Assembly (NCBI GenBank): GCA_029008595.1
Contig: JAQXJH010000051.1
Coordinates: forward strand, 1 to 33,588
Direction: 5' to 3'
DNA length: 33,588 bases
Source of the DNA: Bacillota bacterium
GTDB taxonomy: Bacteria > Bacillota > Clostridia > Oscillospirales > Acutalibacteraceae
Shown: positions 1,239 through 17,975 of the stretch, piece after piece
Position numbering within the stretch: position 1 is the stretch's first letter
Layout: each line of letters begins with the position of its first letter
Position numbers and translations under genes: made by a program
Notes under the pieces: model-generated
What the model saw: only the letters and a program-made list of their open reading frames with translations
Database searches by the model: none
Told to the model about the DNA's origin: nothing

Positions 1239-1243
1239 TGATG

Positions 1244-1282
1244 ATCCTGCGGAAGAAAATTTTCTTCCACAGGATTTATTTT
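1244..1282 (+). terminator. Rho-independent terminator after the coat-type genes
   Basis: Bases 1244-1275 form a near-perfect palindrome (ATCCTG, one C/A mismatch, GGAAGAAAA and its complement) followed by a T-rich tract ending TTTTTCT. It separates the coat genes from the spoIIGA promoter only a few bases downstream. Confidence 0.75.
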
Positions 1283-1289
1283 TCTGAAT

Positions 1290-1323
1290 TTGACATAAAT
1301 TCACCGGATGCTCCGCATATAAT
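1290..1323 (+). promoter_or_regulatory. spoIIG-type promoter with 22-bp spacer
   Basis: A consensus -35 TTGACA (1290-1295) and consensus -10 TATAAT (1318-1323) are separated by exactly 22 bp. The spoIIG promoter of B. subtilis is known for the same over-long spacing, which makes RNA polymerase dependent on Spo0A~P. The -35 overlaps TTTGACA (1289-1295), a 6-of-7 match to the Spo0A box TTCGNCA. Position just ahead of spoIIGA supports the call. Spo0A binding is inferred. Confidence 0.75.
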
Positions 1324-1386
1324 TAAAAAAGATTCGGGGAAAGGACAACAGGATGCCGGGTCGCTTGCAGGAATGGGGGTGTTTTG

Positions 1387-2319
1387 GTGACGGTGATCTA
1401 TCTGGATGTGCTGATCGGACTGAACTGGATCATTGATTATTTTCTGCTGCTCGCTGCAGCGCATCTGCTTTCAAGAAAAGTCCGGCGCTGGCGTATTGTA
1501 CTGGGGGCAGCGCTGGGAGGGGCGGCCTCTGCAATGGTGCTGATTCCGGACATCAACGGGCTGCTCTCGTTTTTGATGCATACTGCTGCGGCGGCGCTGA
1601 TGGTGCTGATTACATATGAATTTCAGTCCGTCCGTCTGTTTTTCAAAACGCTGCTTTGCTTTTACGCCGTCAGTTTCTCTTTTTCCGGGATCATGTACGC
1701 CGTCTGGTACGCTGCTGCACCGCAGGGGATGATCTGGCGGTGCGGTGTGGTATATTTCGATATCTCGCCGCTGCTTCTGATCCTGCTGACGGTTTTCTGT
1801 TATCTGCTCCTGATCCTGCTGCAAAAACTGGTTGGACGGAAGGAAGCTCCGGAAAAATTCTTTTCTGTGGAAATTACGATTGGCGAACAGACAGCGGAAT
1901 TCCGGGCAATGCTGGATACCGGCAATGCGTTGGTGGAGCGGATGTCCGGCGCACCGGTCATCGTGGCAGAATATGATGCCGTACAAAGTCTGATTCCGGA
2001 AGAACTGCAGAAGATTTATGCCGCAGGCGAAGTAGAGCGGATCGACATTCTGGAACGATCCGGCTGGGAAAAACGCTTCCGGGTGATTCCGTTTGCCAGT
2101 GTGGGAGCGCAGAGCCTGTTACCGGCTTTTTTTCCGGACAAGATCACATTGGAAAAAGGAGAAGTTGTCCGGTCGTGCGTGGCGGTCTGCCCGCAAAAGC
2201 TTTCCTCCGGTCTTTATCATGCGCTTGTGCCTTCCGTGCTGGTGGAAACAGTTCAGCTGCAGACAAAAAAGAAAAAGCGGAAAACCGCTGCAAAACATCA
2301 AAGAAATCAGATGCAGTGA
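1387..2319 (+). CDS. spoIIGA: SpoIIGA, pro-sigma-E processing protease
   Basis: A membrane aspartic protease that removes the pro-sequence of sigma-E in the mother cell after septation. The first ~150 residues hold about five hydrophobic membrane segments; the cytoplasmic half contains the catalytic Asp-Thr-Gly triad in the motif AMLDTGNAL (Asp177 counted from GTG at 1387). Length of 310 residues is typical. The start is GTG 1387, 7 bases after GGGGG at 1375-1379; TTG at 1384 would be too close. The stop lies 16 bases before sigE, so the two are cotranscribed as in other endospore formers, from the 22-bp-spacer promoter at 1290. The C-terminal tail is Lys-rich. Confidence 0.96.
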
Positions 2320-2335: not shown

Positions 2336-3061
2336 ATGTTACGGTTCCTGCGAAAATGGCTGATGCGTTGGAAAATGCTCCTGATGCGGCGGATCGGGCA
2401 AAAAATACCCGGTGAGCTTTATTACATCAATGGCTCTGAAACGCTGCCGGCGCCGCTGTCCGCAGAGGAAGAAGCCGCTCTGATGAACAGGATTCTGAAC
2501 GGTGATGAAAGTGCGCGTGAACCTTTGATTACACATAATCTGCGACTGGTGGTTTATATTGCCAGAAAATTTGAAACGCGTGTTGCAAATGTGGAAGATC
2601 TGATCTCAATCGGTACCATCGGACTGATCAAAGCGGTGAGAACCTTCTGCCCGGAACGGAATATCAAGCTTGCAACCTATGCTTCCCGCTGCATCGAAAA
2701 CGAGATTCTGATGTTTCTGCGAAAAAGCGCACAGTACAAAAACGATCTTTCCATTGATGAACCGCTGAATATCGATTGGGACGGAAACGAGCTGCTGCTT
2801 TCGGATGTTTTGGGCAGCGAGCCGGATACGGTTGGAAGAAACATTGAAAGCGAAGCAGAACGCGACCTTTTGATGGAAGCCGTACACCGGCTTTCTCCCC
2901 GGGAACAACGTATTATGGAGCTGAGGTTCGGGCTTGGCGGCGCAGCGGAACACACACAGAAAGAAGTTGCCGATATTCTCGGCATTTCTCAGTCTTATAT
3001 CTCAAGGCTGGAAAAGCGGATCATCAGCCGCCTGAAAAAAGATCTTGAACGGGTAGGGTAG
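2336..3061 (+). CDS. sigE: RNA polymerase sigma-E, mother-cell sporulation factor
   Basis: Early mother-cell sigma factor, made as an inactive precursor. The 241-residue product matches B. subtilis SigE closely over region 2 ([16 protein letters not shown]-like segment, [15 protein letters not shown]) and region 4 ([20 protein letters not shown], the helix-turn-helix). The N-terminal ~27 residues are basic and hydrophobic, the pro-sequence that tethers it to membrane until SpoIIGA cuts near [13 protein letters not shown] at 2336 is chosen because AGGA at 2321-2324 lies 11 bases before it, overlapping the end of spoIIGA; the open frame upstream of it is only a shadow inside spoIIGA. Unlike the usual order, sigG downstream is on the opposite strand. 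Confidence 0.97.
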
Positions 3062-3079: not shown

Positions 3080-3850
3080 TTACAGCTGCTTTTTGATGCG
3101 ATCCAGAGCGCCTTTTTCAAGCCGGGAAACCTGAGCCTGCGAGATTCCGATCTCCTCGGCGACCTCCATCTGTGTTTTGCCTTGAAAAAAGCGCAAAGTA
3201 AGAATGCGTTTTTCTCTGCTGTTTAACTTTGCGATCGCTTCCCGCAATGCAAGTTCTTCCAGCCAATTGCTGTCGTCATTTTTGTCGCCGATCTGATCCA
3301 TCACATAAATCGCATCTCCGCCGTCGGAATAGACCGGTTCGAAGAGCGAAACAGGATCAACGATCGCCTCCAGAGCCATCACAACGTCTTCTTTTGGCAG
3401 CGACAGTTCTTTGGCGATTTCTTCCACCAGAGGCTCGCGCCCGTTTTTTACGGTCAGGCGTTCTTTGACCTGCATAGCCTTATAGGCGATATCGCGAAGC
3501 GAGCGGCTGACGCGGATGGAATTGTTGTCTCTCAGATACCGGCGGATCTCTCCGATGATCATCGGGACGGCGTAAGTGGAAAAACGGACGTTTTGTGAAA
3601 TATCAAAATTGTCGATCGCCTTGATCAGACCGATGCAGCCGACCTGAAACAGATCATCCATGTTTTCGCCGCGGTTTGTGAACCGTTGGATCACGCTCAA
3701 TACCAGACGCAGATTTCCGGAGATCAGCTTTTCCCGCGCCTGGCGGTCGCCTGTATGCATTTTTTGCATCAGCTCTATTTTTTGCGCTTCGGTCAGAACC
3801 GTCAGCTTCGATGTATTGACGCCGCAGATCTCCACTTTATTGTATTGCAT
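3080..3850 (-). CDS. sigG: RNA polymerase sigma-G, forespore sporulation factor
   Basis: Late forespore sigma factor. The 256-residue product carries the diagnostic N-terminus NKVEICGVNTSKL, region 2 with DDLFQVGCIGLIKAIDNF and RFSTYAVPMIIGEIRRYL, region 3 around IRVSRSLRDIAYKA, and region 4 with GKTQMEVAEEIGISQAQVSR. ATG 3850 is preferred over the adjacent ATG 3853 because GGAGG is 7 bases upstream and the protein then begins as in relatives. It is convergent with sigE: only 18 bases separate the two stop codons and no terminator lies between them. In most endospore formers spoIIGA, sigE and sigG run in the same direction, so an inversion is likely. A sigma-F/G-type promoter lies just upstream (3888-3917). 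Confidence 0.97.
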   Translation of the reverse strand: MQYNKVEICGVNTSKLTVLTEAQKIELMQKMHTGDRQAREKLISGNLRLVLSVIQRFTNRGENMDDLFQVGCIGLIKAIDNFDISQNVRFSTYAVPMIIGEIRRYLRDNNSIRVSRSLRDIAYKAMQVKERLTVKNGREPLVEEIAKELSLPKEDVVMALEAIVDPVSLFEPVYSDGGDAIYVMDQIGDKNDDSNWLEELALREAIAKLNSREKRILTLRFFQGKTQMEVAEEIGISQAQVSRLEKGALDRIKKQL

Positions 3851-3887
3851 CATGATTCCTCCGTTTTCACTGCAGAAGTGACAAACA

Positions 3888-6287: not shown

Positions 6288-6796
6288 TCAGCGATAGGCT
6301 GCATAGCGGAAGTGGGGCATATCGACGCCTCTGTAATGCTTGATCCATGTGTCTTTTCTGATCATACCGTTCCTGACGGCCACCTTTTGCGAGGCGATGT
6401 TTGTATCTCTGATAATGGAACAGACCTTATCCGCTTTCAATACGTCAAACGCATACTTTTTGCAGGCGCGCGCCGCTTCAATCGCATATCCCTGATGCCA
6501 GTGAGACCGCTCAAACAGATAGCCGATCTCCAGCACCTCTTCGTTTTTCCATGGCTGATTGTCAGCCCGCATTGGCCGATCATTTCGTCCGTCTCCTTCA
6601 GAATGACCGCCCACAGACCAAAGCGCCATTTTTGATAGCGTGAAATTTGTCTGTTCAGCCATTCCTGCACTTCGGCATCACTGAATGCCCCTTCGTAAGC
6701 GTACATGGCTTTTTCATCCTGCAAAATTCTGCATAAAGACTGAAAATCCGCCTGATTCATTTCCCGCAAATACAATCTCTGTGTTTCAAGTATCAT
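6288..6796 (-). pseudogene. GNAT acetyltransferase, broken by a frameshift
   Basis: A RimJ/RimL-type N-acetyltransferase split over two frames. The N-terminal half starts at ATG 6796 (GAGG about 9 bases upstream) and reads MILETQRLYLREMNQADF through IGQCGLTI; near 6557-6559 one base appears to be missing and the homology resumes in the next frame with QPWKNEEVLEIGYLFE, the acetyl-CoA-binding region HWHQGYAIEAA and a normal C-terminus ending at 6288. Joined, the product would be about 169 residues, the usual size. It is the last of three minus-strand genes, 40 bases after the previous one. A sequencing error is the alternative to a true pseudogene. Confidence 0.8.
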
Positions 6797-17910: not shown

Positions 17911-17944
17911 TTGACAAACGGCCTGCGAGATGGTAAATTATAAT
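17911..17944 (+). promoter_or_regulatory. Sigma-A promoter of the hrcA-dnaK operon
   Basis: A perfect -35 TTGACA (17911-17916) has TAAATT (17934-17939) at 17 bases and a perfect TATAAT (17939-17944) at 22 bases. The first is the likelier -10 by spacing. Either way the CIRCE element starts within a few bases downstream, so HrcA would block initiation. Confidence 0.8.
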
Positions 17945-17948
17945 CATG

Positions 17949-17975
17949 TTAGCACTCAACAAGCAAGAGTGCTAA
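17949..17975 (+). promoter_or_regulatory. CIRCE operator for HrcA
   Basis: A perfect CIRCE inverted repeat, TTAGCACTC (17949-17957), 9-base spacer, GAGTGCTAA (17967-17975), between the promoter and the hrcA start. HrcA repressor binds it and is released under heat stress when GroE is occupied. Confidence 0.98.

Follow-up and report, generated by a model that had tools for sequence, protein, structure and literature searches.

The promoter of spoIIGA-sigE in the analysed DNA (a 33,588-nucleotide contig of a Bacillota bacterium of the Acutalibacteraceae, referred to as the window) is very probably a Spo0A-activated sigma-A promoter of the B. subtilis spoIIG type, in which the role of the -35 element is supplied through a weak 0A box. 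The two hexamers are exact matches to the consensus and lie at an unusually long distance from each other, and this layout is conserved among sampled loci of the same family, order, class and phylum, where a canonical -35 at normal distance is nearly absent. Judging from the aligned upstream regions, the best reading is that a spoIIG-type promoter has been kept widely among endospore formers. The features of this part of the window are as follows.

298-666: MazF/PemK-family gene (PF02452), preceding spoIIGA
712-903: open reading frame of 63 residues with no family match, preceding spoIIGA
954-1238: Coat F-domain gene (PF07875), preceding spoIIGA
1243-1276, plus strand: hairpin followed by a T-run (-19.6 kcal/mol, z -5.0)
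1279-1285, plus strand: TTTTTCT, a weak putative remnant of an upstream 0A half-box, 10 bp from the first box, read by eye
1289-1295, plus strand: putative 0A box TTTGACA, matching TTCGACA at 6 of 7 positions and overlapping the -35 position (logo (T/A)NYGACA in 149 loci)
1290-1295, plus strand: -35-like hexamer TTGACA, an exact consensus match of which GACA (1292-1295) is the conserved portion
1296-1317, plus strand: 22-bp spacer, with no other -35 or -10 at the usual distance
1318-1323, plus strand: TATAAT, the -10 hexamer for spoIIGA, an exact consensus match (pair kept in 149 of 177 loci)
1384-2319, plus strand: spoIIGA, pro-sigma-E processing protease (PF03419, E 2e-71; TIGR02854 178.7 bits, below the cut-off of 209.55)
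2336-3061, plus strand: sigE (NF006158 360.3 bits, above the cut-off of 339)

A first-pass annotation of the window had described two perfect hexamers 22 bp apart upstream of spoIIGA and a 0A box matching at six of seven positions across the -35. Both descriptions were confirmed at the positions listed above, the span of 1289-1323 including the leading T of the box. The end of the -10 hexamer is separated by 60 bp from the TTG start of spoIIGA at 1384 (the start codon could also be GTG 1387), and sigE is the next gene downstream. A consensus scan of positions 1100-1500 found no promoter with a spacer of 16-18 bp, and the hexamer 17 bp from the TTGACA of spoIIGA is CCGCAT, which by eye does not resemble a -10. 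The hairpin at 1243-1276 probably serves as the terminator of the preceding Coat F-domain gene, from which it would separate the promoter; this hairpin is absent from the output of a simple terminator scan. Taken alone, the 0A box is not significant, as matches to five of the six specified bases of TTCGNCA occur four times in about 195 bp where simple arithmetic predicts about two, and its weight therefore comes from positional conservation in relatives. TTCCACA at 1265-1271 was considered as a second 0A box and set aside, being at chance level, located within the hairpin and absent from the logo of the relatives.

Allowing up to two mismatches, a search for TTGACA/TATAAT returned three matches in the window, two of them exact, compared with 1.12 expected. 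The genome assembly of the organism (2.28 Mb) contains 49 exact TTGACA-N12..26-TATAAT pairs, with 29 at 17 bp, three at 22 bp and none at 21 bp, and the same pattern read backwards gave no match. The other two exact 22-bp pairs are found at hrcA (window 17911) and at a lipoprotein-like protein gene on contig C84. Both are probably ordinary 17-bp promoters, since each has a second -10-like hexamer (TAAATT and TAGGAT, respectively, by eye) 17 bp from the same -35, and none such is present at spoIIGA. Their occurrence would be in line with a perfect hexamer pair at spoIIGA arising by chance at an irrelevant distance, with the true promoter located elsewhere. This explanation is extremely improbable, given that 149 of 177 loci and all 61 Bacillus-type loci described below retain 21-22 bp, and given the result of the scan of 1100-1500. 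The shorter pattern GACA-N22-TATAAT occurs at seven places in the genome (backwards control: 13 + 15 over eleven spacings). At the four places beyond spoIIGA, hrcA and C84 no sporulation gene was evident on a short reading, and no wider regulon is therefore claimed. The hrcA promoter itself (window 17911-17975) combines its TTGACA-N22-TATAAT pair with TGG-TAAATT, located 17 bp from that -35, and downstream of it lies a CIRCE-like repeat, TTAGCACTC-N9-GAGTGCTAA (by eye).

The spacing was followed through overlapping genome samples. At family level PF03419 had matches in 182 of 200 genomes, at order level in 55 of 59, at class level in 92 of 118 and at phylum level in 108 of 119. Upstream DNA was taken from the 179 best-scoring loci (90 of the 182 in the family, window included, 29 in the order, 30 in the class and 30 in the phylum), and removal of the duplicates L124 and L133 left 177 loci (90, 27, 30 and 30, the order set having one extra family member, L149). 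Loci in all four groups are thus best-scoring matches rather than random draws. When every distance from 8 to 32 bp was scored for GACA and a downstream TATAAT in which one mismatch was allowed, 116 of the 177 regions had a pair at 21 bp and 38 at 22 bp (some at both), compared with 2.9 and 2.4 in dinucleotide shuffles. At 20 and 23 bp the counts (0 and 1 of 177) did not rise above the chance level of about 2, and a single region had a pair at 17 bp. The 22 regions with a pair at 24 bp appear to arise at least partly from -10 elements such as TATAATAAT that match twice. Counting one best pair per locus, 149 of the 177, window included, lie at 21-22 bp, with 114 at 21 and 35 at 22. Divided by group, the counts at 21 and 22 bp are 53 + 31 of 90 in the family, 17 + 2 of 27 in the order, 20 + 0 of 30 in the class and 24 + 2 of 30 in the phylum. 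The same element emerged from an unbiased scan of the proximal DNA with all 256 tetramers at spacings of 10-27 bp, where GACA at 21 bp ranked first (113 of 177) and TGAC at 22 bp, which is the same element, second (76 of 177). By the test that the first-pass annotation set for itself, conservation of the spacing in relatives, its interpretation is supported. A long spacing recurs in most of these loci and in every Bacillus-type locus, but not 22 bp as such: the permitted interval is 21 or 22 bp, and 21 bp is the commoner of the two among the 149.

In 12 of the 28 loci without the pair, the best pair lies at 21 or 22 bp with a score at least as high as that of the lowest hit, the elements being altered to TACA, GACC, AACA or GCCA cores or to a -10 of GAGAAT. 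L097 has its best pair at 19 bp and L105 at 24 bp, the second best pair of L105, at 21 bp, also passing. Hit-level pairs at 21 or 22 bp are therefore present in 13 of the 28 (12 as best, L105 as second best) and absent from 15. The remaining 14 misses score below the hits, and eight of these still have their best pair at 21 or 22 bp. Four loci (L159, L160, L164 and L172) carry TTCTACA at the same spacing, a sequence that would make a poor -35 and that is called a classical Spo0A box of C. difficile in PMC7643835.

The Bacillus-type set comprises 61 named-record loci (Bacillus, Anoxybacillus, Lederbergia, Pseudalkalibacillus and others), many closely related to one another, retrieved using SpoIIGA of B. 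subtilis as the query. The pair is present in all 61, with 38 at 22 bp and 23 at 21 bp, and the -10 is always TATACT. All of these loci have CA 8-7 bp before GACA and T as the base directly preceding it (position -1), and 39 of them have an exact TTGACA.

Anchored on GACA, the 149 loci have informative columns at C(-8), A(-7), (T/A)(-3) and Y(-1), followed by A-/T-rich positions after the core, and the mid-spacer columns are near background. C(-8) is found in 111 of these loci, A(-7) in 79 and both in 69, and the CA at -8/-7 is a repeat of the core-box CA at a distance of exactly 10 bp. In a tandem Spo0A site, a second 0A box is located 10 bp upstream of the first. Based on these columns, the logo C(-8)A(-7)...(T/A)NYGACA corresponds to a putative weak 0A box together with the remnant of a second box 10 bp upstream. 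In the window, the half-box at 1279-1285 retains the conserved C at 1284 and lacks the A that follows, i.e. one of the two conserved bases is present.

Alternatively, TTGACA could be a genuine -35, which sigma region 4 would contact over a long spacer that is bent or stretched, with the overlapping 0A box as an addition. In 100 of the 149 loci the base at -1 is T, as in TTGACA, where a consensus 0A box would have C, and GACA fits both readings; the invariant T and the 39 exact hexamers of the Bacillus-type loci point in the same direction. Since T at -1 also suits a -35, the box and -35 functions are inseparable by sequence, least of all in Bacillus. However, the base at -2, corresponding to the opening T of TTGACA, varies almost at random in the 149 (A45 C18 G40 T46), whereas TT precedes GACA in 29 of 38 GACA-N17-TATAAT pairs of the organism's own genome. 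C(-8), A(-7) and T(-3) would be meaningless in a -35, as would the choice of TTCTACA in the four loci mentioned above be a poor one. A genuine -35 is thus considered unlikely. The perfect -35 consensus noted by the first-pass annotation is exact in the window but largely incidental, as TTGACA is complete in only 31 of the 149 loci, and the conserved element is better read as a hybrid of 0A box and -35 than as a consensus -35, being more -35-like in Bacillus. Matches of at least four bases to TTGACA at any single spacing of 15-20 bp from the -10 occur in at most 1 of the 149 regions, and a TGn extended -10 is found in 18. With normal -35 elements nearly absent and extended -10 elements few, nearly all of these promoters are without the usual route of sigma-A recognition.

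The same layout is found at spoIIE, the other gene controlled by Spo0A and sigma-A, which differs from spoIIGA in gene and in leader length. GACA is followed by a TATAAT-like hexamer at 21 or 22 bp in 26 of 30 spoIIE loci, these being the 30 best-scoring; 50 genomes were covered, 46 of them had a match, and none scored above the TIGR02865 cut-off. The spoIIE of the organism itself (L293) has GACA-N21-TATACT preceded by CCAATATAT. At spoIIAA, which served as control and whose matches likewise lie below the family cut-off, the pair was present in 5 of 30 loci, all with one -10 mismatch, where roughly 1 is expected (scaled from shuffles). In C. difficile, spoIIAA is driven by sigma-H according to PMC3789822.

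A regulator other than Spo0A could also bind the conserved block. The box deviates from TTCGACA at -2 and -1, and Spo0A binding in the window and its relatives is a prediction, but several observations make another regulator very improbable. The conserved block agrees with TACGACA, a degenerate 0A box that PMC7643835 names for the C. difficile targets spoIIAA, spoIIE and spoIIGA, leaving unstated which one. In addition, the C. difficile Spo0A DNA-binding domain binds spoIIGA upstream DNA, if weakly, in PMC3485338, and spoIIE shares the layout. The organism has an intact spo0A (261 bits to TIGR02875, cut-off 200), and its product carries the same DNA-binding domain, which scores 154 bits to chain 1lq1_A, the solved Spo0A domain, with SRVERAIRHAIEVAW in common.

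A FastTree phylogeny was built from 155 SpoIIGA proteins, covering the 61 Bacillus-type loci and those 94 of the 149 loci for which enough DNA was available. It shows at least 13 changes of spacing (39-50 with shuffled labels). No other protein in the tree shares more than 41% identity with the SpoIIGA of the window, so that the match between promoters does not reflect mere recent kinship. Spacers of 22 bp are richer in G+C than those of 21 bp, with 0.50 vs 0.42 in the family (84 loci, p 0.012) and 0.43 vs 0.32 in the Bacillus-type loci (61 loci, p 2e-6, the rows not being independent), and the upstream 60 bp are equal in both sets. Compensation of twist by composition was considered and rejected, as the summed dinucleotide twist is 750 vs 782 degrees and the extra base pair is not cancelled. 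The tree holds six independent 21/22 pairs on well supported branches, which is too few for a sign test of the trend in twist or G+C. Perhaps the apparent -35 of spoIIGA and spoIIE is a Spo0A site that replaces the sigma contact entirely, in a layout that was already established in the shared ancestor of the Bacillus-type and Clostridia-type spore formers and has since moved at least 13 times between 21 and 22 bp; this extension is offered tentatively and with some doubt.

Homology, together with what has been published for C. difficile and B. subtilis, suggests that the window promoter would be activated by Spo0A~P, Spo0A being the master regulator of sporulation. With a good -10 and no usable -35 at normal distance, the promoter would be silent until Spo0A~P arrives. 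Spo0A~P would then bind the weak 0A box at 1289-1295, sited where the -35 should be, and the degenerate half-box 10 bp upstream could assist this binding. Bound Spo0A might either position sigma region 4 or replace its -35 contact, after which the polymerase would open TATAAT 21-22 bp downstream. Due to the weakness of the box, the operon would be switched on only at high Spo0A~P, and this threshold could lead to commitment to mother-cell development. Binding, activation and the kinetic step affected are presumed for this organism. For B. subtilis spoIIG, PMC12090719 (2025) refers to earlier work in which Spo0A~P acts after closed-complex formation and not on polymerase binding.

These comparisons suggest that an activator-rescued promoter known from one model organism may be a widespread signature of the commitment step in endospore formation. 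The alignment sharpens its definition with respect to box position, the two spacings and the remnant tandem box, and could be used to annotate Spo0A/sigma-A promoters in uncultured spore formers. Natural variants with 21 and 22 bp also provide material for studying how an activator stands in for a -35 contact. No published statement of a conserved long spacer in Clostridia was found in the passages and search listings covered. Few subscription papers were among these, and the earlier promoter studies of C. acetobutylicum and C. perfringens to which PMC3789822 refers lay outside this coverage, so that no priority is claimed.

The surroundings of the operon have peculiarities of their own. In the window, sigG (3080-3853, minus strand) is convergent to spoIIGA-sigE. 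Among 119 loci (including two duplicates) with a SigG-like match of at least 55% identity, the match shares its strand with spoIIGA in 118, the window being the sole exception; 61 further loci gave no match at this identity in the DNA examined. In this arrangement, transcripts reading through from the spoIIGA promoter would run antisense to sigG, and a local assembly error is possible. Further downstream, a GNAT acetyltransferase (6288-6796, minus strand) appears to be split into two overlapping frames that match different parts of PF13302, which probably reflects a frameshift in the gene or an error in sequencing.

Among known systems, the window promoter is closest to those of B. subtilis spoIIG, C. 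difficile spoIIGA and spoIIE. B. subtilis spoIIG has a further upstream 0A site, site 1, and the boxes of this site are not evident in the window, the chance-level TTCCACA at 1265-1271 being at most a doubtful candidate. The window also differs in having TATAAT instead of TATACT as its -10 and in its weaker upstream half-box. Close relatives of B. subtilis (e.g. L210-L217) carry GACA-N22-TATACT with CA 8-7 bp ahead of GACA in front of the same gene as in the window. In C. difficile, a sigma-A promoter with GTGACA/TATAAT has been mapped upstream of spoIIGA, and sigE is reduced 240-fold in a spo0A mutant (both PMC3789822). Compared without its spacing, this promoter shares with the window the gene it serves and the cores of both hexamers, and dependence on Spo0A has been reported for it.
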